From contig JABWBA010000027.1 in the NCBI GenBank assembly GCA_013360745.1, positions 1 to 38,619 of the forward strand: a stretch of DNA of 38,619 nt, written 5' to 3'. The translations under genes and the position numbers were made by a program. This DNA comes from Chthonomonadales bacterium (GTDB lineage Bacteria; Armatimonadota; Chthonomonadetes; Chthonomonadales; CAJBBX01). Shown piece by piece: positions 705 to 21,577 of this stretch. Within the stretch, counting starts at the first letter, position 1. Each line of letters begins with the position of its first letter. The notes below the pieces were generated by a model, which was not told the origin of the DNA, ran no database searches, and saw only the letters and a list, made by a program, of their open reading frames with translations.

Positions 705-1886
705 TCAGTCCAGCCAGTCCTTTTCGCGAAGCCTTTGCGGCGCGTACTCTTCGGTCACGTAGCTGATGTCCTTGCTGATCAGCGCTTCGACCTCGAGCTT
801 GAAGCCGTTGTCGAGCAGTTGCCGGATCTCGTGTTGCCACTCCTTCTTGTGCTCGAACCAGGGATAGCCGGCGATCTGCTTGGCGCGCTTGCGGTCGGTG
901 TCGTTCAATCCGATCTGCACGCTCTTCGAGAGCCCGCACCGCTCGAAATCCTTGCTCCGCAGGCCCAAGAAACGCGCGTCGGGAATGGCCATGCGGCGGG
1001 ATTCGTAGGCCAGGTTGATCGACCCCTGCTTGATGACGCTATAGATGTAATACCCCCAGGGATCGTTATCCAGGAGGCAGAAGACCGGTAGTTTCAGCTC
1101 GTTGTGCAGCCGGTAGAGCAGCCGGCGGACGCCGCGCGACGGCTGGCCGCCCCCATGGGTGAGAATGCACTTGTGCTTCCGCCAGAACTTGTCCTCGTTG
1201 AACCGCCGCCAGACCGTGTCCTTTTCGACGTGGAGGACGAACTTCGCGTCGCACTTGCGGAACCGGATCACGTCGGGCTCGCAGATCGATGGGATCGAAT
1301 AGCCGCCCGAACCGAGCCGCGTGCAGTCGATCTCGTCCCCGCTGTCGATGAGCGTGATCTCCCCGACCATCGTGCCGCGGTTGCTGGCGTAGACGTGCAA
1401 TTCCTCGCGCAGGGCCTCGAGCGCCACCTCCACGTCCTCGATGATCGGGTCGCACTCCGCCTGGTCGCTGAACGTCTCTTCCTTGGTCCCTTCGATCGTG
1501 TGTTTGAGGATGTAGAACAGACCACGGATGCTGGTGGTCTTGCCCTCGTCGATCAATTGCTTGCAGCCGGTGGCCACCAGCAGTGTCTGCATGTAGCTCT
1601 TCGCCTGCGACAGGTTGAAGAGCTGCCGCCGGTTCGTATTGCCGCCCATCTCGATGATTTTTTTCTTCGGGCTGTAGTGCACGTTGGACAGCGTGCGGGC
1701 CGGGATGTCGACGTGCGGCTCCCGGTTCTTCTCCGCAGCGAGCACGACACCGTCGGCCAGGCCCGTCAGGCGGCCGAGCGTCTTCTTGTCCTGCTCCGTG
1801 TACTTCACCGGAGTTTTTTTCTCACCAGGGACTCTTTTCGGGGCTTTCTTGGGCATCACAAGCGCTTCGAGAGTAGAAGGTGTCAT
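705..1886 (-). CDS. top6A: DNA topoisomerase VI subunit A (Spo11/Top6A family)
   Basis: 393 residues from the ATG at 1886. Subunit A is the DNA-cleaving half of the A2B2 type IIB topoisomerase; it makes the transient double-strand break through a tyrosine. The 5Y-CAP region holds TSIRGLFYILKH with the probable catalytic Tyr125 after the conserved Arg. The Toprim metal site is visible as Glu221 in FVLHVEKD and as DNDPWG (Asp273, Asp275). Length is near that of archaeal Top6A. The subunit B gene ends 68 bases upstream on the same strand, so the two are one operon. The start is uncertain: the ATG at 1886 lies inside a heptamer repeat, and an in-frame ATG at 1856 begins the lysine-rich MPKKAPKR; neither has a clear Shine-Dalgarno. 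Topo VI is archaeal and plant in origin and patchy in bacteria. Confidence 0.93.
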   Translation of the reverse strand: MTPSTLEALVMPKKAPKRVPGEKKTPVKYTEQDKKTLGRLTGLADGVVLAAEKNREPHVDIPARTLSNVHYSPKKKIIEMGGNTNRRQLFNLSQAKSYMQTLLVATGCKQLIDEGKTTSIRGLFYILKHTIEGTKEETFSDQAECDPIIEDVEVALEALREELHVYASNRGTMVGEITLIDSGDEIDCTRLGSGGYSIPSICEPDVIRFRKCDAKFVLHVEKDTVWRRFNEDKFWRKHKCILTHGGGQPSRGVRRLLYRLHNELKLPVFCLLDNDPWGYYIYSVIKQGSINLAYESRRMAIPDARFLGLRSKDFERCGLSKSVQIGLNDTDRKRAKQIAGYPWFEHKKEWQHEIRQLLDNGFKLEVEALISKDISYVTEEYAPQRLREKDWLD

Positions 1887-1961
1887 TGGTCATTGGTCAT
1901 TGGTCATTTGCCTGCGCGACAAGCCGCCCACAACCAATGACCAATGACTAATGACTAATGA
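1883..1961. repeat. Inverted array of TCATTGG heptamers between top6B and top6A
   Basis: Left arm: three TCATTGG units and one TCATTTG at 1883-1910. A 23-base spacer follows. Right arm: CCAATGA twice and CTAATGA twice at 1934-1961. The arms are reverse complements over most of 28 bases, so the transcript or DNA could form a long imperfect hairpin. The array supplies the stop codon of top6B (TAG at 1957-1955) and its last His codon lies just beyond the arm; it also contains the upstream start codon of top6A (1886-1884). The unit resembles cyanobacterial short tandemly repeated heptamers (STRR class) as I remember them; that resemblance is from memory. Confidence 0.9.
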
Positions 1962-3970
1962 CCATTTTGGCGATCGACGATCAGTACGTTTTCGCCGTAT
2001 TCTTCGGGATCTTCGTCGATGATGGGTTGGCCGCTCTCGTCGAAGCGGAGGTCGGCATCGGCGGTCTTCTTGGTGGCGACCCGCAACAGGTCGTTGTAGA
2101 GCCGTTCACGGTCGGCGCCGTTGAGCCGGCTGCAGGCCGTGGCCACCTCGCCGAGATAGCGGAGGAAGATCGCCCGCCGCTGTCCCTCCTGCTTCACCTT
2201 CTGGCGGCGTTTGACGTACATTCCCAGTTTGCGTCCGACGGCCTGGAACCCCAGGCGCAGCTCTTTCTGGATCTCCGGGTAGGCGGCGATGGCCTCCTTC
2301 GATTCGCTCGTGAAGGGGACCCAGACGCTGGCGACGTGGACCATCACCGTCACCGGCCCGCTCGGCAGGCCGCCGCGCGACTGGCTCAGGCCGTAGGCTC
2401 GCCAGTTGGTCTGCATGATCGTCTGCGTGATCGCGCAGGCGCCGGCCTGGAACTGCAGCGGCACGCGGTTGGCATAGCGCAGCACGTTCATCGACTGCCC
2501 CGAGCTGAGATTCACGTTCCGCATCGCCTCGTGAAGCTTGTCGATGCTCTGCTTCTTGAGCTTGCCGGGCGAGATGCGGGTCTTGAGGCCGGCCTCTTTG
2601 AGGATGCGATCGGCCGCTTCGAACCCCAAGCCTTCAAAGCTCGTCGCCAGGAATTGCCGCAGCGTGCGGCTGTCGCTCTGGGAGAGCAATTCCTCCAGGG
2701 CCTCGCGCGAGACCTTGTGGGCCGTCGGTTCGCCGCCGTAGGCCAGGCCGACTTCGATCACGAAGGGATTGCCGCGGTACACGGCCGGCGGGCGGGTCGC
2801 CGCCACGTAGAACTCGGCCGGCACGACCTGGTGCAGCCCCTTGAGAATCAACTCCTCGCCGATCGGCACGATACAGTCGGTCGCGGGGGCCTTGATCTTC
2901 GTTTCCTGGATGGCCTTGTAAAGCGCGTCGGCCTCGTGCCGGCCGATCCGCTTGGTATTCGCACGCGTGCTGACTTTGGCTGTCTCGCAGATCCGCCTGG
3001 CGACCGCCGGACTGACGCAGGTGAACGTATCGCTGAGGAACGCCGAGAGCGTCTTCGCCTCGGAATCCTTGAGCATGGCCACCAGCCGGCCCAGTTCGAT
3101 CCCGTACGGATGCGGCTTGATCTCCTTGGGTTCCGGCGGCAGACTCTCGGCAACCCGCGAGTAGCTCTTCGCGTTGCCGTCGGGATCCTGGTAGTGGATC
3201 GTGACGTGCGGATTGGCGATGGCGGTCTGCTCGAGATAGTCGTCAACGCTGCCCCGGCCCCGCTGGTAGCGGGCCTCGAGTTCGATCGTCACTCGCGTGC
3301 CGTGGTTGACCTCAATCCATTCGATCCCGAGTTTCTCGATGGCCTCGCGCCCCTTTTCGCCGGGCGGGACGTCTACCCCTTCGCCGCGGCCGTTGAGAAT
3401 CTCGGGCTTGTTGTGCTTCGTGTCGATCTGGATTTCGTAGTAGTGGGCCGGCTTTCGCGGCGAGATCTTCGACATGATCTTCACCGGCTTGCCGGTGGTC
3501 AAAAGGCCGTACATCCCGGCCGCGCTGATGCCGATGCCCTGCTGGCCGCGGCTCATCCGCAGCCGGTGGAACTTCGAGCCGTAAAGCAGTTTCCCGAAGA
3601 TCATCGGGATGGTTTTCTTCAAGATCCCCGGACCGTTGTCCTGCACTCCCACCTTGAACCGGCTCTCGCCGGTGGTCTCGATATGGACCCAGATCTCGGG
3701 GAGGATGCCGGCCTCCTCGCAGGCGTCCAGAGCGTTGTCGACCGCCTCCTTCACCGTGGTCAACAGGGCCTTTCGGGGGTTGTCGAACCCGAGCAGGTGA
3801 CGGTTCTTGGCGAAAAACTCGCTGACGGAGATGTCGCGCTGGCTGGCCGCCATCGATTGGGCCGTGGCCCGGCGGCGAGGCGCCGAACCGTTGGCCGAGG
3901 AGGGCTGACCATTCGAGCCGCCATCAACCACCTCGTCTGCGGCGGCGGTCAGGGCAGAATCGTCGTCCAT
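1955..3970 (-). CDS. top6B: DNA topoisomerase VI subunit B (Top6B, GHKL ATPase)
   Basis: 671 residues from the ATG at 3970. Subunit B is the ATP-driven clamp that dimerises on nucleotide binding and gates the double-strand passage done by subunit A. The GHKL fold is clear: N-box KEAVDNALDACEEA, G1 box DNGPG, and the G2 lid SRGQQGIGISAAG; an H2TH-like and transducer region follows. An acidic, low-complexity N-terminal extension of about 45 residues precedes SVSEFFAKNRHLLGF. Reading can extend to a TTG at 4009 (13 more residues), but neither site has a strong ribosome binding site; I prefer the ATG. The C-terminus past the transducer (ILIVDRQNGH-like end) is longer than in the shortest archaeal forms. 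It is first in an operon with top6A and its last codons run into the heptamer array. Confidence 0.94.
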   Translation of the reverse strand: MDDDSALTAAADEVVDGGSNGQPSSANGSAPRRRATAQSMAASQRDISVSEFFAKNRHLLGFDNPRKALLTTVKEAVDNALDACEEAGILPEIWVHIETTGESRFKVGVQDNGPGILKKTIPMIFGKLLYGSKFHRLRMSRGQQGIGISAAGMYGLLTTGKPVKIMSKISPRKPAHYYEIQIDTKHNKPEILNGRGEGVDVPPGEKGREAIEKLGIEWIEVNHGTRVTIELEARYQRGRGSVDDYLEQTAIANPHVTIHYQDPDGNAKSYSRVAESLPPEPKEIKPHPYGIELGRLVAMLKDSEAKTLSAFLSDTFTCVSPAVARRICETAKVSTRANTKRIGRHEADALYKAIQETKIKAPATDCIVPIGEELILKGLHQVVPAEFYVAATRPPAVYRGNPFVIEVGLAYGGEPTAHKVSREALEELLSQSDSRTLRQFLATSFEGLGFEAADRILKEAGLKTRISPGKLKKQSIDKLHEAMRNVNLSSGQSMNVLRYANRVPLQFQAGACAITQTIMQTNWRAYGLSQSRGGLPSGPVTVMVHVASVWVPFTSESKEAIAAYPEIQKELRLGFQAVGRKLGMYVKRRQKVKQEGQRRAIFLRYLGEVATACSRLNGADRERLYNDLLRVATKKTADADLRFDESGQPIIDEDPEEYGENVLIVDRQNGH

Positions 3971-4039
3971 GTCGCTCGACGTTCCTGGAAGTCGCGTCGT
4001 CTTCTGCAATGCTGAGGCTCCGTGGGTGAGATTGGGCAG

Positions 4040-4068
4040 ATTATAACGGATTTTCCGGCCTATTCCCA
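4040..4068 (-). promoter_or_regulatory. Possible promoter of the top6B-top6A operon
   Basis: Reading the minus strand, a perfect -10 TATAAT occupies 4045-4040. A -35 at 17-bp spacing would be TGGGAA (4068-4063), which is a weak match. The predicted transcript start near 4033 leaves about 60 bases to the ATG at 3970. The call rests on the -10 and on the position in the divergent gap before the DUF1800 gene. Confidence 0.45.
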
Positions 4069-4218
4069 GGCGGCTTTGGCCGCAGTTACGGTACAGATCC
4101 TACTCGCCGCACATCCGGCGCATAAAGACTCACCCGTGGCACCGCCCCAAGCCGACGAATCATGGGGAGTCCCAAAGACCCGCATGAAAACCTCCCGCCA
4201 ACGATTGAGGAGCCGTTC

Positions 4219-5746: not shown

Positions 5747-7018
5747 ATGGCAGCGCACCTATCGCGCAGGGAACTGCTGACCGGAACGGCTCTGGCGGCG
5801 GCGCTGGCCGCCTCCGATCCCCGGCAGATGGCGCTCGCATCGGTGGCGGCGGTTCCGGAGCGTCGTCAGGATCGGGTCCTTGTGACGCTGTTCCTGAGGG
5901 GCGGCGCCGACGGACTCTCCATCGTGCCGCCGGTGGCCGATCCCGAGTACCACAGGCTGAGACCGACGCTGAGTCTGGCCTCTCCTCAGGATCGGTCCGC
6001 ACCCAGGGCCGCACGGGCCATCCCGCTCGACGACTACTTCGGCCTCAATCCGGCGCTCCGGTCCATCGAACGCCTCTATCGGGATGGGCTCCTCGCTGTG
6101 CTCCATGCCGTCGGCTCCGGAGACCGCACGCGCTCCCACTTCGAGGCGATGGCCGTCATGGAACGGGGCCTCGCCGGCTCCACCGAGGGACCCTCCGGCG
6201 GGTGGCTGGCGCGCGCCGTTACGGCTGACGACGAGGGGGGCGTATCGCCGCTCCGAGCCCTCGCGTTCACCGAAACCATGCCCGATATCCTCCGGGGAGC
6301 GTCCGGCGCTACCGTGATCCGATCCCTGACCGACTTCCGACTCCACGGCGATCTCGAGACCGCCCGGACCCTGCAAGCGCTCTACGGCATGGACCCCGCC
6401 GGCGACGCGGACCTCGGCCTGCTCCAGGCCGGGCGGGGCAGTCTGCGCGTGATGGACGCTATCGCCGCACTCCATCCGGCTGCCTATCGGCCATCCGGGG
6501 GCGCCGTCTATCCGCCGGGTCCGCTGGGCGACGGCCTCCGACAGACCGCCTGCCTGATCAAGGGCCGCCTGGGCCTCGAGGCCGCCTTCCTCGATGCCAC
6601 CGGCTGGGATACCCATGTGGCCCAGGGGCGCGACAGCGGCTGGCTGCCGGCCCGTCTCGCCGAACTGGGCCAGGGGCTTGACGCCTTCACCAGAGACCTT
6701 GGTGCGGAGATCGGGCGGGTGACCGGAGTGGTCATGACCGAGTTCGGTAGGCGCGCCTATGAGAACAGCGGTCTGGGCACCGATCACGGCAGAGGCAGCT
6801 GCATGTTCCTGTTCGGGGCCGGAGTCGCGGGCGGCAAAGTGCATGCCGCCTGGCCCGGCCTTGCGCCCGGGGCCCTCGAGCCGCCCGGCGACCTTGCCGT
6901 CACAACGGACTACCGTCGCCCGCTATATGAAGCGGTCCGGAGAACCCTCGGCGCGACCGCCGCTGCGGCCGCCTTCCCGGACTATACGCACACACCCATC
7001 GGAGTCGTAAGCGCCTGA
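5747..7018 (+). CDS. DUF1501 family protein with Tat signal
   Basis: 423 residues. The ATG at 5747 follows the DUF1800 stop by four bases and has GGAGAGG (5732-5738) upstream. The N-terminus LSRRELLTGTALAAALAA carries a twin-arginine motif, so folded export by Tat is expected. The conserved core of the family is present: VLVTLFLRGGADGLSIVPP near residue 45, DDYFGLNPALRSIERLY, LHAVGSGDRTRSHFEA, ATGWDTHVAQG and VVMTEFGRRAYENSGLGTDHG near the end. The His, Asp and Glu-rich motifs resemble the alkaline-phosphatase/sulfatase fold to which the family is related; the substrate is unknown. Operon with the DUF1800 gene suggests they act together outside the cytoplasm. Confidence 0.93.
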   Translation: MAAHLSRRELLTGTALAAALAASDPRQMALASVAAVPERRQDRVLVTLFLRGGADGLSIVPPVADPEYHRLRPTLSLASPQDRSAPRAARAIPLDDYFGLNPALRSIERLYRDGLLAVLHAVGSGDRTRSHFEAMAVMERGLAGSTEGPSGGWLARAVTADDEGGVSPLRALAFTETMPDILRGASGATVIRSLTDFRLHGDLETARTLQALYGMDPAGDADLGLLQAGRGSLRVMDAIAALHPAAYRPSGGAVYPPGPLGDGLRQTACLIKGRLGLEAAFLDATGWDTHVAQGRDSGWLPARLAELGQGLDAFTRDLGAEIGRVTGVVMTEFGRRAYENSGLGTDHGRGSCMFLFGAGVAGGKVHAAWPGLAPGALEPPGDLAVTTDYRRPLYEAVRRTLGATAAAAAFPDYTHTPIGVVSA

Positions 7019-7056
7019 GCTGGCCGATGGAAGGGGCGAGAGGCCCGTTGTCGTAG

Positions 7057-7077
7057 GGGCGGGCCGAGCGCCCGCCC
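7057..7077 (+). terminator. GC-rich hairpin after the DUF1501 gene
   Basis: GGGCGGGC and GCCCGCCC form an 8-bp perfect stem around CGAGC, 40 bases after the stop codon. No T-run follows, so this could also be a plain repeat element; the position favours a terminator. Confidence 0.45.
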
Positions 7078-7130
7078 GGAGGGGCTCATCCGCTGAAGCG
7101 GTTCCTGTATCGCCCCTGTGCGCCCACGTC

Positions 7131-7192
7131 CACCCAATCCCACCCAATCCCACCCAGTCCACCCCGCCCACCTATGCCCACCCACTCCCACC
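7131..7192. repeat. C-rich tandem repeat (CACCCAATCC) in the intergenic gap
   Basis: Three head-to-tail decamers, CACCCAATCC twice and CACCCAGTCC once (7131-7160), continue as degenerate CCCACC units to about 7192. The array lies in the 356-base gap between the DUF1501 gene and the methyltransferase. The rest of that gap holds the hairpin at 7057-7077 and the promoter at 7259-7287. One strand is almost free of G through the array. Confidence 0.85.
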
Positions 7193-7258
7193 CACGCTGT
7201 GCCCGTACTTGCCCATGTAAGACAACCGTCCCACGCGGCCAACGAACGCGCCGATTCC

Positions 7259-7287
7259 TTGACATCGCTAAACAGAATCGGTATCAT
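7259..7287 (+). promoter_or_regulatory. Sigma-70 type promoter of the methyltransferase gene
   Basis: TTGACA (7259-7264) and TATCAT (7282-7287) with a 17-bp spacer. A transcript starting near 7294 would have an 80-base leader before the ATG at 7375. Confidence 0.75.
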
Positions 7288-7374
7288 GTGTTTGCAGCTA
7301 TATGCGACACAGTCGCAACTAAATCCGATTGCGACGATGCGTTCGCCGTCAACCGGGTCCATAGAGGTGCTACC

Positions 7375-8178
7375 ATGCAAGACGCACTGCCCGGAGCCCA
7401 TCTTCGGGCTGAAACAATGCCAGGACACTGGGTGCTGGCCAAACTGGGCAAACGGGTGCTGCGCCCGGGCGGCCTTGGTCTGACGAAGCAGATGCTCGCA
7501 GGCCTCAACGTCCAGCCAGCCGACCGGGTGGTCGAGTTCGCGCCCGGCCTCGGCATCACCGCCCGCCTGACCCTCGGCCGCCGCCCGGCCGCCTATACCG
7601 CAGTCGAACGGGATGAAACCGCAGCCGATCTGCTGAGGCGCTGGCTGACCGGTCCGACCCAGCGGTGCCAGACCGGAAGCGCAGACCGTTCCGGAGTGCC
7701 CGATGGCGCTGCCACTGTCGTATATGGTGAGGCCATGCTCACCATGCAGACCACCGAAACCAAGCGGCGCATCCTGAGCGAGGCCTATCGGATCCTCGAG
7801 CCTGGTGGCCGATACGGCATCCACGAACTATCCCTCAGCCCCGATGATATCCCCGACACCATAAAACACGAGATCGAACAGGCGCTGAGCCACTCGATCC
7901 GCGTGGGAGCGCGCCCCCTGACCTGCGCCGAATGGCGTGAGGAGCTGACCCGGGCGGGTTTCGAGGTGTGCGAGGAACATCGCGCTCCGATGCATCTCCT
8001 GGAGCCGATGCGCCTTGTGCGCGATGAAGGCTGGTTCGGCGCCATGCGCTTCCTGATGAACGTCGTTCGCGACGCTCCGGCACGGAAGCGGGTCCTCCAG
8101 ATGAGGAGCGTCTTCCGCCGTTACGAGGCAAATCTCGGCGCGATCTCGCTGATTGGAGTCAAAACGTCCGACCGATAA
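7375..8178 (+). CDS. Class I SAM-dependent methyltransferase
   Basis: 267 residues from the ATG at 7375, which has AGAGGTG (7363-7369) upstream; an open frame runs back to 7174 but is translated repeat and promoter DNA. Motif I for S-adenosylmethionine binding is VVEFAPGLGITA near residue 43, followed by an acidic strand end (TAVERDE). The motif IV region is degenerate (TVVYGEAMLTM) and a later strand is RILEPGGRYGIHEL, typical of Methyltransf_11 proteins. The C-terminal third (LEPMRLVRDEGWFGAMRFL, RRYEANLGAISLIGVK) would form the substrate lid. The substrate cannot be told from sequence. It is monocistronic with a strong promoter. No signal peptide or membrane segment is seen. Confidence 0.88.
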   Translation: MQDALPGAHLRAETMPGHWVLAKLGKRVLRPGGLGLTKQMLAGLNVQPADRVVEFAPGLGITARLTLGRRPAAYTAVERDETAADLLRRWLTGPTQRCQTGSADRSGVPDGAATVVYGEAMLTMQTTETKRRILSEAYRILEPGGRYGIHELSLSPDDIPDTIKHEIEQALSHSIRVGARPLTCAEWREELTRAGFEVCEEHRAPMHLLEPMRLVRDEGWFGAMRFLMNVVRDAPARKRVLQMRSVFRRYEANLGAISLIGVKTSDR

Positions 8179-8322
8179 AAAAAGGAGCGACGAATCGCGC
8201 GGGACGGACGCGCGACGCCGGATCGCATTCCGCCATCACCGCCCTGCGCCAGTGTGCAGGGTGTGCCGGAGAGGAGCGTCCCGACGGCATCGTCCGGCGA
8301 CCATCGATTGCAGCCGATCCTG

Positions 8323-8353
8323 TTGACATCGTCGGAGCGGACGGTGCTATAAT
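8323..8353 (+). promoter_or_regulatory. Promoter of the tRNA-Leu / tRNA-Gly pair
   Basis: TTGACA (8323-8328) and TATAAT (8348-8353), both consensus, are 19 bp apart. TGC immediately before the -10 makes it an extended -10, which can offset the long spacer. It lies 34 bases before the first tRNA. Confidence 0.8.
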
Positions 8354-8387
8354 AGCGATGCCATGGGGACCGCGGCCATTCCGTGGC

Positions 8388-8468
8388 GGGCGAGTGGTGG
8401 AATGGCAGACACGCTGGTCTTAGGAACCAGTGCCGAAAGGTGTAGGAGTTCGAATCTCCTCTCGCCCA
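8388..8468 (+). tRNA. tRNA-Leu (anticodon UAG)
   Basis: 81 nt. The acceptor stem GGGCGAG (8388-8394) pairs with CTCGCCC (8461-8467), with discriminator A. The anticodon arm is CTGGT-CTTAGGA-ACCAG, giving UAG, which reads CUN leucine codons. The long variable arm TGCCGAAAGGTGT and the T-arm with GTTCGAATC are as expected for a class II tRNA. CCA is not encoded. Confidence 0.96.
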
Positions 8469-8494
8469 TGGTATGGCGTACCGGCGTCCCGCAT

Positions 8495-8566
8495 GCGGGA
8501 GTAGCTCAGTGGTAGAGCGCCTCCTTGCCAAGGAGGAGGTCGCGGGTTCGAAACCCGTCTCCCGCT
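8495..8566 (+). tRNA. tRNA-Gly (anticodon GCC)
   Basis: 72 nt. The acceptor stem GCGGGAG (8495-8501) pairs with CTCCCGC (8559-8565), with discriminator T. The anticodon arm is CCTCC-TTGCCAA-GGAGG, giving GCC. The T-arm is GCGGG-TTCGAAA-CCCGT. CCA is not encoded. It is probably co-transcribed with the tRNA-Leu 26 bases upstream. The accessory region begins directly after it. Confidence 0.96.
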
Positions 8567-8589
8567 TGTTCCCTCGCGGATCAGGCTCC

Positions 8590-8871
8590 TCATTTCGCCG
8601 CACCTGACGCCGTCACGCTGCCAATGCCGGAGCGCGACCTGACAGGGGGGTAGTCACGGGAACCCACTTTTCCCTTGTAAGGGTTCACGTTGCCCCGCGT
8701 GGACCAGTTGTATAGGAAACTTCCATCGGGTGCCGACCTATAGTGCGGGGCAACGTAGGTCCCATCCGTTCGGAAGTAACCGCGGACGCGTACGCTCCGC
8801 TGAGCGTCGCCCGCTAGCCCGACGGCGAGGAAGACAACGCACCAGAGCAGGACAAGCCTTCGCACGAACAT
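8590..8871 (-). CDS. Small secreted protein with G-Y-x-R-x-D-G-T / NPY motif
   Basis: 93 residues with a clear start: AAGGAGG eight bases before the ATG at 8871. The first 23 residues ([20 protein letters not shown]) form a signal peptide. The mature part reads [20 protein letters not shown], then [16 protein letters not shown], a short motif pair that I recognise from many small exported bacterial proteins of unknown function (often GYxRxDGTYVxPHxRS...NWSxxGNxNPYTGxxG). No enzyme residues can be named. It is the last in a string of minus-strand genes and lies head-on against the tRNA-Gly. Confidence 0.85.
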
Positions 8872-9077
8872 GCGGACACCTCCTTACTCACGAAACAACG
8901 TAACATACGCCACGAGTGGCCCAACGGCGTTACCAACGACTGCGACCGGCGCGCAACCATGATGGCCCAACTGGCAGGCTGGCCTCCCATCACACAGCAC
9001 CGGCAACTGCCCCTTGGGCCTGCCTGTGGGGTGGGCGTGCCTCACCGCTGCGAACCTAGAGCACCTGTGTCCGCGCG

Positions 9078-9389
9078 TTAGGAAACGGCCGGCACCGTAT
9101 CGAGAGCGGCACTCAGTCTGCGGTATTCCAGAACCGCGCAGAACACCCCGTACGCAATCCATGCGACGACAGCGCACGCAACGAGGATGGTGATGAAGCG
9201 CACGGCTCTGGCTGATTCCCTTCGCTCGACGTCGGTGATTACACCTGTCGCCACGAGGTACGCTAGGAGTTCGGCTCGGTACTTCTCAGTAGCTAGGGGG
9301 TCCAAGAACCGCTGCCAGAAGGTCGGAGGCTTCGGGGCCTCGGGGACGTGGCGCTGCCCCTGTGCGTCGCTGACAGGACCACCTGCCAA
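9078..9389 (-). CDS. Small single-pass membrane protein, unknown function
   Basis: 103 residues. Start is a TTG at 9389 preceded by GGAG at a spacing of six. The N-terminal half is polar (PKPPTFWQRFLDPLATEKYR); residues 65-88 (AVRFITILVACAVVAWIAYG) form one transmembrane helix. No family is recognised. A good minus-strand promoter lies about 65 bases upstream. It may be specific to this accessory region. Confidence 0.6.
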   Translation of the reverse strand: MAGGPVSDAQGQRHVPEAPKPPTFWQRFLDPLATEKYRAELLAYLVATGVITDVERRESARAVRFITILVACAVVAWIAYGVFCAVLEYRRLSAALDTVPAVS

Positions 9390-9731
9390 TGGTGCTCCGT
9401 TGTGCGGCGGGTCCGACGGTCATGCGGGGTTCCGAGCGTGGCGTGACAGTCATGATAGCATTATACGCTCTTTGACCACGGCCGGGCAAAGCGCACCGGA
9501 CGCAGAAATCCTGCAGGCAACACTAGAATCGTACTTACAGTCGCAGCGCGACTGGATCGCAAGGCCCACGACCACAACATCACGGAGGACATGGGCCGTG
9601 CCACATGCTTCCGGTTCGGATGCATCCCGAACGTCCATCTTGCAGGACGCCTGTCACGACCTTTGCCCCTATCGCCGCGCCCCGCTCATGCGGTGGCCGA
9701 TGGACTCGCGCCCTATCCCCCGCCGTGAACC
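9390..9731. other. Intergenic stretch without a supported gene
   Basis: This 342-base gap between two minus-strand genes contains the promoter at 9460-9489. The remaining open frames, including a 62-codon minus-strand frame ending at 9450, lack ribosome binding sites and recognisable sequence. Confidence 0.6.
9460..9489 (-). promoter_or_regulatory. Promoter upstream of the 103-residue membrane protein
   Basis: On the minus strand, TTGCCC (9489-9484) and a perfect TATAAT (9465-9460) are separated by 18 bp. The expected transcript start near 9453 leaves a 64-base leader to the TTG start at 9389. Confidence 0.6.
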
Positions 9732-10484
9732 CTAACGCATCTGCGCGACAATGCGGCTTCCTGTGGCACTCAGTATCTTCAGGCGGAATCGCTTCAGGTT
9801 CGAGACGGTAGTAAGTTTGGCGGCGAACTCGCGCAGGGCCGACCTGGCGATGAGGACCTCTGTCCTATAGATGCGGGTCTCGTACGTTCCCGGACTTACC
9901 TCGACTACCCCCTGCAGCTTGCTGATGGCCTTCTCGACATCCGACGACACAGCGACGCTGGGCACGCCTCGAATCTCAAGCTCTATGTGTTGCCCCACGC
10001 CGAACGCCAGCTTCTCCAACTTGCTGAGGAGCCTCTCTGCCATCACCTCCGCGGTCTGCGCCAAGGCCACTTTGCTGGCCAGTTCCTCCGACACATCCGG
10101 AGCGCCAGTTCGCTGCGCAGCGTCTGAGTAGATACGCTCTGCAGTGTCTACACGGACGGCTCTGAGTTCAACACGAGCCCGGCACTGCAGCCGCCGTACA
10201 CGAATGCCATCAATGTCTTCAGTGGTGTCGGTCGCCACCTGCGTGAACGCCTCGCCGGTGACGAAGATATCGGCACCGAACCGCCGGCCGATCTTGGCGG
10301 CTTCTGTGTCGGCGCCGCGCCCGCCCTTCACGATCCGATCCACTGCGTCGCTGTACCGGATATCCCGGTACCGGTCCTGGTCCACCACCTTATAGCCGGC
10401 CTCAATGAGTTGCCTGCACAACTCCGTCTCGACCGCCGGGTCGGGGATGCGTGGCTGAGCCAGGTGCCGTTCTGGGACAACCAC
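9732..10484 (-). CDS. CsgG/TolB-like secretion-associated protein, N-terminus uncertain
   Basis: 250 residues from a GTG at 10484. The fold pattern is that of CsgG/FlgT/TolB-N type proteins: a strand (MVVPER), an amphipathic helix EVTELCRQL-like, GYKVVDQDRY, then AAKIGRRFGADIFVTGEAFT and CRARVELRAVRVDTAERIYS. A second alpha/beta unit follows (ELEIRGVPSVAVSSDVEKA). Such proteins sit in the periplasm or outer membrane. The GTG has no Shine-Dalgarno. A strong one (AAGGAG, 10619-10614) precedes a TTG/GTG start at 10609 or 10603 in another frame that overlaps the gene by more than 100 bases. In the gene's own frame the sequence stays open back past 10600 without a start. A frameshift joining the two is likely. 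Exact function unknown. Confidence 0.65.
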   Translation of the reverse strand: MVVPERHLAQPRIPDPAVETELCRQLIEAGYKVVDQDRYRDIRYSDAVDRIVKGGRGADTEAAKIGRRFGADIFVTGEAFTQVATDTTEDIDGIRVRRLQCRARVELRAVRVDTAERIYSDAAQRTGAPDVSEELASKVALAQTAEVMAERLLSKLEKLAFGVGQHIELEIRGVPSVAVSSDVEKAISKLQGVVEVSPGTYETRIYRTEVLIARSALREFAAKLTTVSNLKRFRLKILSATGSRIVAQMR

Positions 10485-10654
10485 AATGACGCGCCAGCGA
10501 CGAGGCAGTCTGGCATCACGGACACTGCACGCGAAGCCGTCGTCAGGGCGCGAAAACCCGGAAGTTGGACGGTCCAGGCATGAGCGATCACGCGCGTTAT
10601 CACGGGCAAGTTCTCCTTTGTGAATGACTTACCGCCGTCGGGCGGTCAATGGGA

Positions 10655-10855
10655 CTACAGCCCCTTGAACTTCAAGTTGAGCCATGAGGCCAACCCCAAG
10701 CAGAGCAACAGAAGCACCACATCGAGGTCAGCACCAAACACCGTCTGCAGGCCGGGGAATAGTGCGTGATGGGCTTTGTACAGACCCCAGAAGACCAGGC
10801 CGGCTTTCGCTATCGCGATCCACATACGGTTATCGGGGTACAGCACACGGAACAC
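10655..10855 (-). CDS. Small two-helix membrane protein
   Basis: 66 residues. GTG start at 10855 with AGGAG seven bases upstream. Two hydrophobic segments are visible: WIAIAKAGLVFWGLYKAHHA (about 12-31) and DVVLLLLCLGLASWLNL (about 45-61). The leader (AAAGGAGAACT) is nearly identical to the one before the 10609 start of the next gene downstream, which suggests related or duplicated translation signals. No family recognised. Confidence 0.6.
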   Translation of the reverse strand: MFRVLYPDNRMWIAIAKAGLVFWGLYKAHHALFPGLQTVFGADLDVVLLLLCLGLASWLNLKFKGL

Positions 10856-11118
10856 AGTAGTTCTCCTTTCTAGACGGTTCTCTTGTCATCGAGCGGTCCA
10901 GTGGCACACGCTGTCAATAGCTAGGCAATGTAGACCACGCATGTTCGGTTGGAGTCGCAGGCCACCAGTAAGGTCCTCGAGATCCGAACCGGGACCTCCT
11001 TGAAGGCGTCGAACGGCGTGCGTGCCCGGTGCATACTAGCTTGCTCCTCAGCGAATGCCGCCGCCACCGCCCGCTACCGCCAACGCCGGAAGGTCCTGCT
11101 GCGATTGCCATGCGGTCC

Positions 11119-12450
11119 TTATTCCGAGCCTCCGTCACCTCGGTCCGTGGCAGAAGGAACTGACGCCTCCTGTCGCTCAGTTTGTGCGCGTGATTCCGAG
11201 CGTGCAGGAGTTGCCACGTCGGACACTGTACTGTTCGCGTTCGCCTCCCGCGGCGGCGCAGATGGCCCCGCTGAAGCAACTCGCCTCTCAATCCACCACG
11301 AGAATGGCCACAGGCCCCCCAGCACTAGAGGGAACAGCCACAGAGGCGTCCTCCACCACAAGGGATCGCCGCTTAGCCCGGTGGCCTGCGACGCATGGCG
11401 CGCGTACCCGATGAGGGCCCAAACGAGCAAGGAGATCATAGGCACGACCATGCAGAGCCAGTCGCGAATCCAGACGTGCATCTGGATGATGTGGCCCGTT
11501 GGCGACCCGAAGCCATAGCGTGTGATGTTCCAGTGCTCCGCGACTATCGCCGCGGAGGCCAGTAGGGAGAGAACGGCGAACACCACACCCAATCCTAGTG
11601 AACCGCCTCCCAGATGCACGATCGGAGCATCTCCTCCCTTGGAAGTGCCGGTCACAAGCGTGAACATCCCGACAAAGACTATCTCGAAAAGCATGAAAAA
11701 CACGATGCCGTCTTTGACGAGGTTGCCAAGGAATTCCATGCGTAGTTGCCAGCTCTGTGGCCCAGGCTGCGACAAAGCAGGCAAGACCCACAGTAAGCCG
11801 CCGAGTACGTATGCAACGTAGAAAATGGACGAAAGGGAGACAGCCTTGCTCCATCGAACGATGGCATAAGCAAGGGACGGGAATTCGCGGGGCGCCGTCT
11901 GCCCGACGAGCCATGCCGCGAAACTGATCGCGAAGACGGCGACCATCACTACGAGTATGAACACCCGGTGAGACCACATCTGGATGCACGTCCTCTTAGC
12001 CAGGTTCCAGCCTCGGTTGCCTTGCAGCCACGACGCCACCAGATATCCTATGAGAAGGCTTGGCAGACCAGCCACCGAAACCTTCACTGAGATGGTCTCC
12101 TGCAGCTGGGTTGAAACGGCCAACAGCACTCCGGATACATAACCCGGATCGTGGTCGGTCCTTAATGCTGCCCATCGAACCACCAAGGCGCAGACAATCA
12201 GGGGAATCCACGCAATGGCCGCCATCGATGTCTGCAGTACGCTCCAGTAACGTCCGCGATCGGTACTAGATCCGTCTGTCTCTCCGTAAGGACGCGCATT
12301 CAGGACGGCGTACGACCACGTGTTTGGCCACCACTGGTGGCCGTGCCGGATGCTCGCGATATAGCAGTCATAGTAGATGTGCGTTTCGAAAACTGCTAGA
12401 GTCGGTAGAACGATGAGAGCGTACATCATCACTTGCTCGACAAGGCTCAT
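11119..12450 (-). CDS. Polytopic membrane protein of unknown function
   Basis: 443 residues from the ATG at 12450, which has AGGGAG seven bases upstream; an ATG at 12471 in frame lacks one. About nine or ten hydrophobic segments run from MMYALIVLPTLAVFE near the start to TPLWLFPLVLGGLWPFSWW near residue 385, including VFILVVMVAVFAISFAAWLV and LGVVFAVLSLLASAAIVA. The C-terminal 60 residues are polar and low in complexity (Ala, Ser, Arg, Glu). I recognise no transporter or enzyme motif. It lies just downstream of the interrupted caspase-like lipoprotein gene (117 bases) on the same strand, so the two could act together at the membrane. Codon use looks less GC-biased than in the flanking backbone. 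Confidence 0.75.
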   Translation of the reverse strand: MSLVEQVMMYALIVLPTLAVFETHIYYDCYIASIRHGHQWWPNTWSYAVLNARPYGETDGSSTDRGRYWSVLQTSMAAIAWIPLIVCALVVRWAALRTDHDPGYVSGVLLAVSTQLQETISVKVSVAGLPSLLIGYLVASWLQGNRGWNLAKRTCIQMWSHRVFILVVMVAVFAISFAAWLVGQTAPREFPSLAYAIVRWSKAVSLSSIFYVAYVLGGLLWVLPALSQPGPQSWQLRMEFLGNLVKDGIVFFMLFEIVFVGMFTLVTGTSKGGDAPIVHLGGGSLGLGVVFAVLSLLASAAIVAEHWNITRYGFGSPTGHIIQMHVWIRDWLCMVVPMISLLVWALIGYARHASQATGLSGDPLWWRTPLWLFPLVLGGLWPFSWWIERRVASAGPSAPPREANANSTVSDVATPARSESRAQTERQEASVPSATDRGDGGSE

Positions 12451-12567
12451 TGTCTGGCTCCCTGCTGACATGCGCCGTACCCATTGTCAGTTGGGCTCTA
12501 CAGCACGTGCCGCACACGATGATTGGGTTCTGACCCACACCCGCAGGCGATCACTGCCATGGAATCA

Positions 12568-14367
12568 CTACCGCCCTGGCTTCACCGGGAACTCAGAGCG
12601 CGCGCGTGTAGTCAGCTCGTTGATCGGCGTAATCCTGCCTTCAGGATAATCGACGTAGGCCACGCGCCAGATGCCGTACTCAGGAAGCGGCCGCGGGCAC
12701 ATAAACGACATCGGATTCCCGCTCGTCGTCTCGACCCACACGTACGGCGTGGTTGCTGCCGTGACGCCGTGTGCCGAAAAATAGTGGACATAGAGCTCGT
12801 ATCTACCGCTCGGGAGTGACGTCGCGGTGATGTGTTCTGGACCGAAGCCGTCGACATCGTCCACGTCCAATGCCGCTCCCCAAGAGGTGACTTTGTTGTA
12901 CCAGTAACATTCCGTCAGGCCCTGTGCCGACCCGCTGATCGGATTCAGGTGCAGATCCACGTCGGTTCCGTCCGTGTTCCAGCTCAGTTCAGTCCACAGC
13001 GCCTGGCTCGGGAAGCTGCCGGTGAACCGCACCTCTTCAACGTCTTCTCCGGTAGGGGTCACGGCGTGGACTCTAAGAACGTTTGATCCTGCTCGACACA
13101 CCGTGCTGCCATGGAAATTGCCGTTGGAGTTGACTGTCAGGGGAGACGGGACACCGTTTATCTCGACACTGGCATAGGAACCCGCAGGCCATGGGCTGAT
13201 ACTGCCTGCGTACTGCAGGACCCGCGTTGTGACCGTCTGTCCGGGACGTGGTGTCGTGATCGTGATACTGCCGGCGGTAGTGGGGGTCGCATTCAACGTG
13301 ATGTCTGGATCACCAGCGATCTTGAGCATGTACGGGTTACCGTTGAACACACCGCCCTTGAGGTGCTGCGGGAGGTCGTCCACGGCCTGCTGAAGATTCC
13401 TGCCCCGTGCCATGCGCAGAAGAAGGCGGTTGTAGGCCCAGGGCGACACGGGTTGTGAGTCGGTCCATCCAGCGTAGGAGGCAATACCCACTCCGAACAG
13501 TGTGTTGCTCATCGTTGCGTCGTACGATCCGCAACCGGCATTCAAGAACAGGCCTCTGGCAAACTTGCGGTCCTTGTAGTTGGTGTCCCAGAACTTCGGT
13601 CTTACTCCGATGAATGATCGCGTCTGTGTCCGCTCGCCGTTGGCGCCATCGAGACCCCAGTCCACGATAATGACGTCAACCTCGCCGCCAGTCCACGCCG
13701 ACCAGTAGGTGGGGATTGAGTTCACCCAGTTGACCTACTGACCAGTCATCATGGAGTAGTTGCCTGGTACGCCGGAGTGGCCGAGGTACAGGATGAGGGA
13801 AGCCGAGCTAAGCTCTCTGAACCGCTCGACAGTTGCAGCAGCGCCGTTGATCCGCTCAACGCGATACCCGAGTGCCTCGAGCAAGTCTGCCGACAGATCT
13901 AACATGCTTGACGCATCAGATAAGGCGGGGTCATCGGAAAGCGTGTTGACCACCGCCGCGTTCTGGTTTCCGGTTGGCGCTCGGCCACGGCGAATCTCCG
14001 AGACGGCGGCCATGACTTCGGCTCTCAGCGCTGGCATATCAGGCGGAACGAACTTAGGCATGTCCTGAACCCAGACGAGCCGCCCCCCACTACGCATGGT
14101 GACGCCCAAGGAACCATCGCTGCCAACGACGACTTCACGGACACGCTCGTCCGCAGCCGCCACGCGACGGGCCTCATCCAGCGCGGTGGGGTTCTCTATG
14201 CCGCCATTTGAGCGGAGTACATCACCCACCCGGTTCGCCACGGCTTCTGCGTCGGCGGCGGCCTTCTTGAGGTCGCCGTTGCCGCCGCCTCCGCAACCAA
14301 CCGCAGCGAGAATAATAAGAACCGCGACTAGCGCCAGACCAAGTCGAGTGCTTCTGAACCTGAGCAT
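12568..14367 (-). pseudogene. Caspase-like lipoprotein with YfaP/DUF2135-type domain, interrupted by one in-frame TAG
   Basis: A single reading frame of 600 codons is broken only by TAG at 13737-13735. Start: ATG 14367 with GAGGAG seven bases upstream; the signal peptide ends in a lipobox (LAAVGC, then GGGG). The first part (to about residue 210) ends in SLILYLGHSGVPGNYSMMTG, a strand followed by the His of a clan CD (caspase-like) site. After the TAG the same domain goes on: VDVIIVDWGL, then LFLNAGCGSYDA with the candidate catalytic Cys and SYAGWTDSQPVS. The C-terminal part has Ig-like strands and TDVDLHLNPISG...DVDDVDGFGPE, a YfaP/DUF2135-like domain. The amber sits between the putative His and Cys, so the upstream product would lack half the active site. 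Restart at GTG 13725 is possible but would lack a signal peptide. Nonsense mutation, readthrough or sequencing error cannot be told apart here. Confidence 0.75.
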
Positions 14368-14439
14368 TTCCTTTCTCCTCTCATTCTGCGATGACAAATG
14401 TCTATGCTGAACGCACGATAGGACGATGCGCGCGTGGAG

Positions 14440-14766
14440 TCACGTCAGACCGAAGAAGCTCGACGGCGGCTTGTGATAGCGTTGTGCTAACAGGAGTACG
14501 GCAATGACGATCCAGATCATGAGCGCCCATGCGCAACCGCCCGACGGGAACCGCCTGCTACTCTCGAACAGAAACTGGACCCATGATAGTGCGAGCGCAA
14601 TACCCAGAAGGATGGGTGCAAAATCGAGTCTCGCTCGGGATCCGTTCATCACGATCTCTATGGCTCCGAGGATCACAACCGCGATGATGCCAGGCAGCCA
14701 ACCGCCCGAACATCCCTGGGTACACGATGGTGTTTGATCGAATTGGTTCGTCGGTCCTATGAACAC
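14440..14766 (-). CDS. Small membrane protein with three hydrophobic segments
   Basis: 108 residues. GTG start at 14766 with GAGAGGTG five bases upstream. Segments GWLPGIIAVVILGAIEIVM, FAPILLGIALALSWVQFLF and GCAWALMIWIVIAVLLLA are hydrophobic. The N-terminus has two Cys (TPSCTQGCSGG). No family is recognised. It precedes the caspase-like lipoprotein gene by 72 bases on the same strand. Confidence 0.6.
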   Translation of the reverse strand: MFIGPTNQFDQTPSCTQGCSGGWLPGIIAVVILGAIEIVMNGSRARLDFAPILLGIALALSWVQFLFESSRRFPSGGCAWALMIWIVIAVLLLAQRYHKPPSSFFGLT

Positions 14767-14817
14767 AATGCACCTCTCTATCAGCTCTCACTATCGAACC
14801 CATCAACCATCCAAACA

Positions 14818-14955
14818 TCACCGATCGTAACTGATGAGAGACGGTTGAAGTTGACCCACCCGGGGTGGGCATTTCCGCTCAGCCTTGGCCTTCAGATCCT
14901 CGAGCTCCTGACGGAGTTTGCCCAGTTCAACCGTCGTGGCGAGACGCGGCTTAGC
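14818..14955 (-). other. Out-of-frame coiled-coil reading frame, possible displaced C-terminus
   Basis: Forty-five open codons after a TGA at 14958-14956 read VELGKLRQELEDLKAKAE then RKCPPR, a good heptad coiled-coil followed by a Cys-Pro turn, and end at TGA 14820-14818. There is no start codon or ribosome binding site. The frame overlaps the 3' end of the preceding membrane-protein gene in a different register, so it may be its original C-terminus displaced by a frameshift near 14955. Confidence 0.35.
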
Positions 14956-15476
14956 TCATGGAGCGGATCCAATCCCCTCACGAACCACAATAAAACGAGC
15001 AAGGCCCACATATGACCTATAGCGTCATTGGCGAACTCGATGTCGAACGGGCGGTCCATGACGGACTTCACCTTGACCGCGGGATCATAAGCCGTTGCCT
15101 TGCAGTTCGGCCCCAGGAGTCGGGCCTTTGCCCCCGCTGCTTGTCTTATCGCCTCGTAGACCAGGTACACGCCCGCCACCAAGGATCCCAGAACGATCAC
15201 ATGACCAATGAAGTGGAAGCCCTCGTCTCCGGCGAGCGGCGCACCGACGAACAGGGCGACCAATAGGGCACCCGCGCACCCCCATGTCGCACTCTTCGCA
15301 TCTATCAGATCGTGGTCGTGGCAGCGGTCAAAGTAAGGGAAGCGGAACTCCTCGTTTCCCTCAGGACGGTACAGGCTCTCGGTCCGGAACTTGGTGCTCG
15401 GCTCGCCGCAGCAGACGCACAACGGGAGTGCGACGAACTTGTCAAGGAGATCGCGCGGAAACTGCACTGTTGTCAC
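14892..15476 (-). CDS. Membrane protein with Cys/His cluster, unknown function
   Basis: 194 residues from the GTG at 15476, which has GGAGG eight bases upstream; the frame is open further upstream but without such a site. Near the N-terminus LPLCVCCGEPSTKF and FDRCHDHDL give a Cys-x-x-Cys...Cys-x-His-x-His cluster that could bind zinc. Two hydrophobic helices follow (ATWGCAGALLVALFVGAPLA and FIGHVIVLGSLVAGVYLVY), and a third lies near the C-terminus (GHMWALLVLLWFV). The last 25 residues are Arg/Ser-rich and may be the product of a frameshift, since another frame there encodes a coiled-coil. It is the first of the minus-strand series. Confidence 0.6.
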   Translation of the reverse strand: MTTVQFPRDLLDKFVALPLCVCCGEPSTKFRTESLYRPEGNEEFRFPYFDRCHDHDLIDAKSATWGCAGALLVALFVGAPLAGDEGFHFIGHVIVLGSLVAGVYLVYEAIRQAAGAKARLLGPNCKATAYDPAVKVKSVMDRPFDIEFANDAIGHMWALLVLLWFVRGLDPLHELSRVSPRRLNWANSVRSSRI

Positions 15477-15568
15477 GGTCGTGTCCTCCGAGGCATGCCT
15501 CACGGGGCTTATCCTTATTTCCAATGACGCGCGAGGCTGGCATCGGCGCTGTTTTGCGAGATACATAG

Positions 15569-16036
15569 TCCGTTTTTGATCTCGATCAGGCCGGGACACG
15601 AGAAGACCGGGCCGAAGGAAACGCAGCGCACGCCGGGGCGCCGAGGCGGCACCGCGGAGTGTGCCAACTGCTCATTGCCAAGGACCGTGGCGGTGAGTTC
15701 GGCGACGCCGCGTTGTATCTGCAGATGCTCGGGTCTGATCGGTTCCAGATCACGGACCGAGATAACTGGGAGCGATCGTCTCCGGCACGAGGCTTAGCTG
15801 GAAGGACGAAGCGGAGCACGGCGGCGAGTGCAATCCAGGAGGCCCTAGCGCAGCGCGGCAAGCTTACGCGGGCCGACCTCGTCAAAGTGGGCCACGCCAA
15901 TGGCGCAAGCACAGGCGTCACGGACGGCGTGCTGAAGTCGCTGCGGGAAGGTGGGCACATCCTTCGCACGAGGGCCGCCAGCGGCGAGGCGGCGTTTGAG
16001 CTCGCTGGCGAAGGCGAACGCACGCGCTACATTTAG
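15569..16036 (+). pseudogene. Gene fragment: possible replicative ATPase tail with winged-helix end
   Basis: The frame opens after a TAG at 15566 and runs 155 codons. It has no ATG; GTG at 15659 lacks a convincing ribosome binding site. GVCQLLIAKDRGGEFGDAAL resembles the last strands of DnaB/RepA-type ATPases (compare IAKxRxGPTG). The C-terminal 70 residues (AIQEALAQRGKLTRADLVKV, DGVLKSLREGGHILRTR) look like a winged helix. The whole is read as the 3' end of a phage- or plasmid-type replication gene. The assignment is weak. Confidence 0.4.
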
Positions 16037-18218: not shown

Positions 18219-18242
18219 CGCTCACATTCCCCCTCAACCTCT

Positions 18243-18298
18243 CGCCTCTCGCCTCTTGCCTCTTGCCTCTCGCCTCTTGCCTCTTGCCTCTTGCCTCT
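18243..18298. repeat. Eight tandem YGCCTCT heptamers
   Basis: Units in order: CGCCTCT, CGCCTCT, TGCCTCT, TGCCTCT, CGCCTCT, TGCCTCT, TGCCTCT, TGCCTCT, each seven bases with only the first base varying. Degenerate CAACCTCT and CAACCCTC flank it. The array is 25 bases upstream of the kinase remnant and 31 bases beyond the end of the glycoside hydrolase gene. The minus strand is purine-rich. Confidence 0.95.
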
Positions 18299-18328
18299 CA
18301 ACCCTCAGCTTCCCGTCGTATCGGGCCG

Positions 18329-21300: not shown

Positions 21301-21424
21301 CTTGCTCAACCGGCCCGCCCTGGGTCCTGGCGTCGATCCCGGACAGGAGGAGGCCAATCAGCGGCAGAATGGCTGCCGCCAACGGACGAACGGGACGACG
21401 ATTCGGCGAAATAGCCAGCGGCAT
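18329..21424 (-). CDS. Large secreted clan-A glycoside hydrolase with nested LamG domain
   Basis: 1031 residues from the ATG at 21424, which has GGGAG five bases upstream; an ATG at 21448 lacks one. The signal peptide is PLAAAILPLIGLLLSGIDA. Residues up to about 330 form beta-sandwich regions. The (beta/alpha)8 barrel starts at VTRIGLSWEQVNPAPGVWVW (about 364-383). It is then interrupted by a LamG/concanavalin-like domain (about 397-592: ATDEVTIAFWARTPG, GRWRHYAVTYS, LDELVLYQRAL, LLARWSFDG) and resumes with RIEPLLILGFPPEWAS. The acid/base is probably Glu665 in EIWNEPD and the nucleophile Glu769 in PIWITELSRS, as in GH39/GH5-like enzymes. A C-terminal beta domain follows. The likely substrate is an extracellular polysaccharide; the exact family is not certain. 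It is divergent from the histidine kinase gene. Confidence 0.85.
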   Translation of the reverse strand: MPLAISPNRRPVRPLAAAILPLIGLLLSGIDARTQGGPVEQVLDPMEATRGWRLGGDRIAYSLGTSALQIAAALPREGAERYILLSADFTDPARSMVSAVRLEPTGAFDCRSIGLWALGDGSGSELRITIEDAEGRFFEAAAASLDFTTWRRVDIPITDNPAWKPLVRTGESPSPIRQPVAVRRILLAPPEDRSKLQASGGIARVGLSGLAAQIEPNPLDAIMGKVVPTQPAGIFVQGQKAELRLILRNKGSSAMTGRCSARLIDMDGRTITADLGIAAIPAGGHRSLSYVPMVKRFGPYTVRFRFEVAGRSREWIGRFGLLRGTEPLRRRSDARLGSNGAVYGLPTAADRTLRSLNRLGGIGVTRIGLSWEQVNPAPGVWVWDRPAMIPGPSGHGMRTGQKALQANDGARLNATDEVTIAFWARTPGGDAGRQNIVSKGAYGGPRNYSVFLRAQSGRFAFSASSEKDPGSAVEFDARVDGRDGRWRHYAVTYSRHIRQVALYVDGAVRTTAVFDGGRLLTNGSPLVIGDANPLDLDELVLYQRALGPADIAALARKARPPADGLLARWSFDGPDPLSGRVGRGDLRLTAVEPLGITAARQARAQRIEPLLILGFPPEWASSWTPGSAGQRPWLHQPDLKAWAAYVENVVRRYRDIVQCWEIWNEPDSPAFWEPAPDPVRYGALLKTAFVAAKRGNPRAIVVMPGVAGSGPRPDFLDALLQKGYGRWCDAISIHHYSPLAPETELARRLRHIKELCSAAHLARPIWITELSRSVQTPDGVTERVQASLLARSCIVALSEGPVEKILWFRLNDPGADPFDLEDGYGLCRDDLSPRAAFFAFRTLAVLLGRARSLGAAAPGRGIEVRTFRSAGERLAAIWSRTGPQWVGVQAHKARIQTTDLMGNSVLQSASEGTLLLRVDDAPTFVRYLPDEVRWIGPLLTVSGRIDAQEGRILIEARVTNPYRTSIECPVTVRLGIDRTAEAHGTLTVKPGATKQIRLTLPLPRDDGSIRLHCRAQMRGRTIDAACELARP

Positions 21425-21577
21425 GGTAGCTCCCAGCGATCGGCGCAATGCTGCAAGCGGCTCGAGAGGCGATCATTACGCGGACGCGTTATCTCCGATC
21501 GTCCGGCGCCAGCAATGAGCGCGCGCCTTCGGATCCGCTGCAGGCGGTTGGTCTGTCTGGTATATAGCATATATCCC

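Follow-up and report, generated by a model that had tools for sequence, protein, structure and literature searches.

Known heptamer repeats and stop-codon structures

Intergenic heptamer repeats that are biased toward start codons are already known in bacteria: direct repeats of TAACTGA occur in Beggiatoaceae, Cyanobacteria, and Bacteroidetes (MacGregor 2015, PMC4679880), and heptameric repeats have been reviewed (PMC4692102). Among the tandem heptanucleotides of cyanobacteria (STRR), three are recorded for Calothrix PCC7601, as cited in PMC4692102. A different kind of intergenic feature is the ribosome termination structure (RTS): within an operon, a stable hairpin forms on a stop codon or directly after it (PMC7518266). 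Termination-reinitiation coupling operates where stop and start overlap or lie within about 20 nt of each other (PMC10666635), and coupling through RNA unfolding has been described for rpmI-rplT with a spacing of +52 nt (PMC12548453).

The array analyzed here lies between top6B and top6A, the genes for the two subunits of topoisomerase VI, in a 38,619-nt stretch from a Chthonomonadales bacterium (contig JABWBA010000027.1; hereafter, the window). With the TAACTGA repeats, it and the related arrays share tandem 7-base units, few copies per set, a mostly intergenic position, a bias to one orientation directly upstream of starts, and a patchy distribution across phyla (PMC4679880). The unit here is instead CHAATGA (TCATTNG on the opposite strand), which contains ATG and itself becomes the start codon, and inverted pairs forming hairpins across a gap are recurrent, whereas a single inverted repeat was reported in a Beggiatoaceae genome (PMC4679880). 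The cyanobacterial STRR and heptameric long simple sequence repeats are likewise intergenic heptamer tandem arrays as far as they are covered in PMC4692102; the descriptions in this citing literature do not include a stop-hairpin-start architecture. As in RTS, a stable hairpin sits at a stop codon, but RTS are defined by folding rather than by repeats, and their description makes no mention of stop and start codons being provided (PMC7518266). As in MS2 coat-lysis and rpmI-rplT (PMC12548453), a downstream start is predicted to be buried in a stem, to be melted by the ribosome on the upstream gene, at a distance comparable with +52 nt; those cases are experimental, whereas opening is predicted here and a conserved start (position 1856) lies outside the stem. 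A literature search by heptamer strings returned no match. Within the literature searched, what is new is that the unit is the start codon itself and that inverted pairing recurrently brackets the gap from stop to start.

Heptamer array at the top6B-top6A junction

On the forward strand, four TCATTKG units (three TCATTGG and one TCATTTG) face four inverted CYAATGA units (two CCAATGA and two CTAATGA) across the spacer (Table 1). The units are exactly 7 bases long, head to tail, and present in at least two copies, as in heptanucleotide tandem repeats, and the array is both intergenic and start-oriented, with the top6B stop and a top6A start codon inside it. Searching with a 14-base doublet (at most 2 mismatches) gave 7 matches in the window, 6 of them within the array, against a chance mean of 0.15, and no shuffled sequence reached 7. 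The arms are 93% complementary over 1882-1908/1936-1962, and the minus-strand RNA at 1880-1965 has a predicted folding energy of -44.8 kcal/mol (z = -7.7). Sequence, doublet statistics, and predicted fold all agree with the earlier note, made from the letters of the window, which had described four TCATTGG-type units facing four inverted ones across 23 bases. No Rfam family matched at the array. An intrinsic terminator, defined by a GC-rich stem followed by a U run, was rejected, with 0 terminator-like sites in 1700-2200.

Table 1. Coordinates of the array, its flanking genes, and the surrounding homologous block in the window
Feature	Coordinates	Strand	Remarks
Hairpin 5' arm (mRNA)	1934-1961	-	TCATTAG TCATTAG TCATTGG TCATTGG; holds top6B stop codon
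Spacer, 23 bases	1911-1933	-	Small inner GC hairpin predicted by folding
Hairpin 3' arm (mRNA)	1883-1910	-	CAAATGA CCAATGA CCAATGA CCAATGA; in-frame ATG 1886-1884 within last unit
top6B, topoisomerase VI subunit B	1955-4009	-	PF09239, PF02518; C-terminal tail replaced by array
top6A, topoisomerase VI subunit A, longest form	705-1886	-	PF21180, PF04406; conserved start 1856
Block homologous to L078 DNA	705-4175		87.6% over 705-1802, 83.1% over 1971-4030, 74.2% over 4030-4175

The same note had claimed that the array provides the TAG stop of top6B and the first ATG of top6A. Both codons were found within it, the stop at 1957-1955 and the most upstream in-frame top6A ATG in the last unit of the 3' arm. 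The two units closest to top6B are TCATTAG; because this variant supplies TAG and yet mispairs with CCAATGA, codon supply and arm pairing are at odds in the window array.

Translation from the array start would yield a Top6A beginning MTPSTLEALVMPKK, and translation from 1856 one beginning MPKK; the former is longer at its N terminus by 10 residues (MTPSTLEALV). At the position of start 1856, M[AP]K[KR] is common to all 10 aligned Top6A proteins, and the upstream extension occurs only in the longest form from the window. Judged by this conservation, 1856 is the original top6A start and 1886 the added one. This reverses the proposal that the array had displaced the original start to 1856, which is the start conserved in relatives.

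Junction in relatives and origin of the gene block

The closest relative of the top6BA pair was found on L078, a Pirellulales contig labeled 'Rhodopirellula sp.' AS06rmzACSIP_8 and belonging to planctomycete genome G291. There, top6B is 13 residues longer and is followed by a 9-nt gap and then by ATGCCCAAG, which is also found at start 1856 of the window; the gap contains no array. The C terminus of the top6B product reads ...VDRQNGH* in the window and ...VDRDARGGGLAVKKD* in L078, the tail being replaced by the array in the former. Among 36 relatives, the top6B-top6A gap ranges from overlap to >1.7 kb. The absence of the array from close relatives with no effect on gene spacing had been named beforehand as grounds against a role. 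The array is indeed absent from the L078 junction, but gap length varies freely at this junction.

The host assembly comprises 3.3 Mb in 127 contigs, and the phylum set comprises 291 genomes including the host. By searching and by sampling stretches, no second CHAATGA/TCATTNG array could be found in the host genome, even when three mismatches were allowed, and a 19-base array match occurred in only 2 of the 291 genomes, the host and G034. Top6A was absent from all 290 other genomes of the phylum, whereas 80 planctomycete loci, the majority of them from Pirellulales, carry it at 72-91% identity. DNA homology to L078 ends at 4175 and, inside the block, is interrupted only across 1803-1970, around the array. 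The neighboring CheW and DUF1800 genes have relatives within the host family and order. By tetranucleotide composition, the contig is host-like from 18 kb onward (18-38 kb), and its 1-4 kb segment falls below the host range and closer to L078. Mis-binning of the contig, suspected once top6A had turned out to be missing from the phylum, was rejected on the grounds of this composition at 18-38 kb and of the CheW and DUF1800 flanks, which leaves acquisition of 705-4175.

Because top6A is missing from the other 290 genomes, 705-4175 matches Pirellulales DNA, and the flanking genes have relatives in the host phylum, the top6BA pair was probably acquired horizontally from a Pirellulales-like donor planctomycete. 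The segment is in itself an apparent inter-phylum transfer of topoisomerase VI; a phage carrying top6A was looked for, and none was found. We infer that the array probably arrived together with top6BA, although the orthologous junction in L078 is array-free.

Elsewhere in the window, the composition of 6001-16000 is unlike that of the host (correlation 0.59-0.71); the segment adjoins two tRNAs at 8388-8566 and may be an island. Two further contigs of the host assembly are composition outliers (L171, G000 C110, 0.64; L176, G000 C125, 0.77; compared with about 0.95) and probable contaminants, and L176 carries a CTCTCAG heptamer array.

CHAATGA arrays in planctomycete and viral sequences

The analysis of the wider family covered metagenome assemblies with our own simple gene calls, one heptamer family, and one array-rich genome in depth. 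That genome, G291, is an 11.3-Mb metagenome assembly, which may be impure; it contains 106 CHAATGA doublets, compared with 0 for a reversed-pattern control. At triplet length, the pattern was present in 6 of 50 planctomycete genomes. Set numbers differ between one in the host and many in G291.

In G291, 46 of 61 distinct arrays lie between tandem (co-directional) genes, the other 15, with CHAATGA taken as the top strand, being divergent (7), convergent (6), or without a gene called on the left (2). Called starts between -25 and +60 of an array number 33 on the CHAATGA strand and 3 on the other, a count biased by the fact that the array has ATGs on one strand only. When recounted on gene bodies without their start codons, the asymmetry was weaker but significant, with CHAATGA pointing toward the start in 34 tandem arrays and away in 12 (p = 0.0016). 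Start codons cluster at the second-last unit (giving MTND...) or at the last unit (MT...), and several conserved N termini start directly at the array, e.g. MTSNYFRAEIRAMAGY, MTNSHPNVLILRAPGTNCDRE, and MTNDNFDVAIVGGG. We take MTSNYFRAEIRAMAGY to be a HisC-like and MTNSHPNVLILRAPGTNCDRE a PurQ-like N terminus; two further array-borne N termini of G291, MTNDNFDVAIVGGGPAG and MTNDHSSPSRRAFLKRSASG, are presumably FAD oxidoreductase-like and Tat-signal-like, respectively.

Arrays without an inverted partner outnumber hairpins in G291. Six sites have both arms in the order seen in the window, and in 6 of 6 the 5' arm contains, or comes within 10 nt of, the upstream stop; a start codon lies within the 3' arm in 3 of the 6. 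Loops and flanks are unrelated among these copies. The same stop-hairpin-start plan was seen in the second host-phylum genome, G034 (locus L017), and, from 60 viral stretches carrying the heptamer, in viral contigs L029, L030, L052, L074, and L075. In eight loci (L017, L021, L029, L030, L042, L052, L074, and L075), the stop codon of a long upstream ORF is contained in the 5' arm or is about 11 nt from it at most. By its sequence, the window array is a member of a family of intergenic heptamer-repeat hairpins whose home is in planctomycetes of Pirellulales type and which is seen in viral contigs too; it seems to be a portable device for ending one gene and starting the next, not a one-off.

Related but distinct arrangements were seen alongside this family. 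In viral contigs L019, L046, and L051, direct TCATTAG arrays stand just 5' of the starts of several genes of one phage-like contig; their orientation is opposite to that of the planctomycete start arrays, and TAG often opens the array. Another planctomycete genome, G333 (L178, L189, L199, and L204), has larger nested palindromes at several sites, with outer arms like CTCCGTGGCTCCGTGG and inner ones of CAATGAC type.

Period-7 arrays of other units

A second heptamer array in the window (18238-18307) consists of nine CCTCTYG units, unrelated to the first and in a single orientation, about 22 nt past the stop codon of a minus-strand ORF at 18329-21448 (laminin-G/glycosyl hydrolase-like). Pirellulales loci that had been selected for top6A alone (L125, L105, L130, L146, and L079) also carry period-7 arrays, with the varied units GAGTGGA, ACTGACT, GGGGCGA, ATTTCAA, and TGGCGAR; some are in inverted pairs, as at 1420-1458 and 1497-1531 of L125. 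The array in L079, of unrelated unit TGGCGAR, occupies the top6B-top6A gap. CCTCTYG and TGGCGAR units have no stops, and a reading in which all heptamer arrays provide stop codons in all frames was rejected.

Translation at the junction and competing explanations

With moderate confidence, we read the array as an intergenic heptamer hairpin of the planctomycete family, probably co-transferred with top6BA, that most likely acts as a local element of the translation junction and provides an additional, coupled start. Architecture, family, orientation bias, and the origin of the gene block are read from the sequence itself; arrival of the array with the block and any effect on translation are inferences. 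In the mechanism proposed, the 5' arm (TCATTNG in mRNA) would close top6B, and the 3' arm (CHAATGA in mRNA) would offer the next gene starts in more than one frame. A stable structure would form at the top6B stop codon, with AUG 1886 paired to the CAU codon directly preceding the stop. On reaching the end of top6B, a ribosome would melt the stem at its base and expose AUG 1886, giving some coupled Top6A that is 10 residues longer; basal translation from 1856, which lies outside the hairpin and is predicted to be open, would proceed independently of it.

Folding predictions fit this scheme for AUG 1886 of the window, although the predicted switch is not general among loci. AUG 1886 is predicted to be unpaired with a probability of 0.00-0.01 in free RNA and, once a ribosome footprint covers the top6B stop, of 0.89-0.98; for AUG 1856, the value in free RNA is 0.92-1.0. 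A suggestion that the hairpin hides the top6A start is therefore upheld by prediction for 1886 and contradicted for 1856. Opening driven by the footprint was also predicted in L244/L202, L074, and L075, and in part in L231; L267 stays closed and L017 does not open. From the top6B stop, the starts lie 68 nt (1886) and 98 nt (1856) away, beyond the measured working range of strict termination-reinitiation, which is therefore unlikely (PMC10666635).

A first alternative, possible but in our judgment doubtful, is neutral: in the donor, slippage during replication together with template switching would have produced the heptamer repeat and its inverted copy, tolerated at gene borders and without effect on Top6 expression. 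Among long simple repeats, heptamers are the most frequent class in many bacterial genomes, with polymerase slippage put forward as the cause (Mrazek, as relayed in PMC4679880 and PMC4692102). The unrelated period-7 units at Pirellulales loci, including TGGCGAR in a top6B-top6A gap, the spread of that gap from overlap to 1.7 kb, and the predicted openness of the conserved top6A start would all suit such an origin. Random slippage at tolerant sites would not, however, be expected to leave one heptamer family dominating G291 with a strong strand bias toward gene starts, or start codons at fixed array offsets, and inverted arms require more than slippage.

Somewhat less credible, though like the first a serious contender, is that the hairpin acts as an RTS, insulating termination of top6B and reducing re-initiation, with top6A started independently at 1856. 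RTS folds placed right after stop codons are reported to control re-initiation (PMC7518266), the 5' arm is at or near the upstream stop in all six G291 hairpins and in the eight further loci listed with them above, and 1856 is predicted to be accessible. Against this, the stop in the window sits inside the stem, at its base, and not strictly upstream; where the next gene starts in the 3' arm, insulation would shut that gene off, seemingly a high price for two subunits of one enzyme; and the single, unpaired CHAATGA arrays at start codons are left unexplained.

A mobile palindromic element (REP/MITE-like) inserting at gene ends would fit the many dispersed G291 copies, the patchy occurrence among Pirellulales (6 of 50 genomes), and the presence in viral contigs, but it is improbable given the lack of a constant body (loops and flanks being unrelated between G291 copies), the single copy in the host, the freely varying copy number and arm length, the excess of partnerless arrays over hairpins, and the failure to see a target-site duplication at the window junction. 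The earlier note had also envisaged a mobile repeat that landed between the two genes; the array-free 9-nt gap of L078 and similar arrays throughout G291 agree with an arrival, but a mobile-element body is missing and loops differ by site.

Returning to the translation-junction reading, a broader form of it is speculative, and we put it forward tentatively. CHAATGA/TCATTNG arrays may be a portable translation-junction element shared by planctomycetes, phages, and one or more other phyla, which could be grafted onto any gene border to couple or insulate neighbors: one arm would end a gene, the inverted arm would start the next, and the 7-base period would give stops and starts in every frame.

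Implications

Heptamer repeats beside start codons, an oddity noticed in cyanobacteria and giant sulfur bacteria, have lacked an explanation ever since. In planctomycete G291, the repeat supplies the starts of ordinary genes (hisC-, purQ-, and oxidoreductase-like N termini), and gaps between genes are bracketed from end to end by paired arrays. With a period of 7 (1 mod 3), ATG and TGA fall into all three frames within 21 bases, which offers a testable reason why the repeat fits any border. For annotation, it follows that MTND... N termini in array-rich genomes can derive from repeats. The topoisomerase VI pair offers a clear example of such a repeat that seems to have traveled with genes gained from elsewhere.
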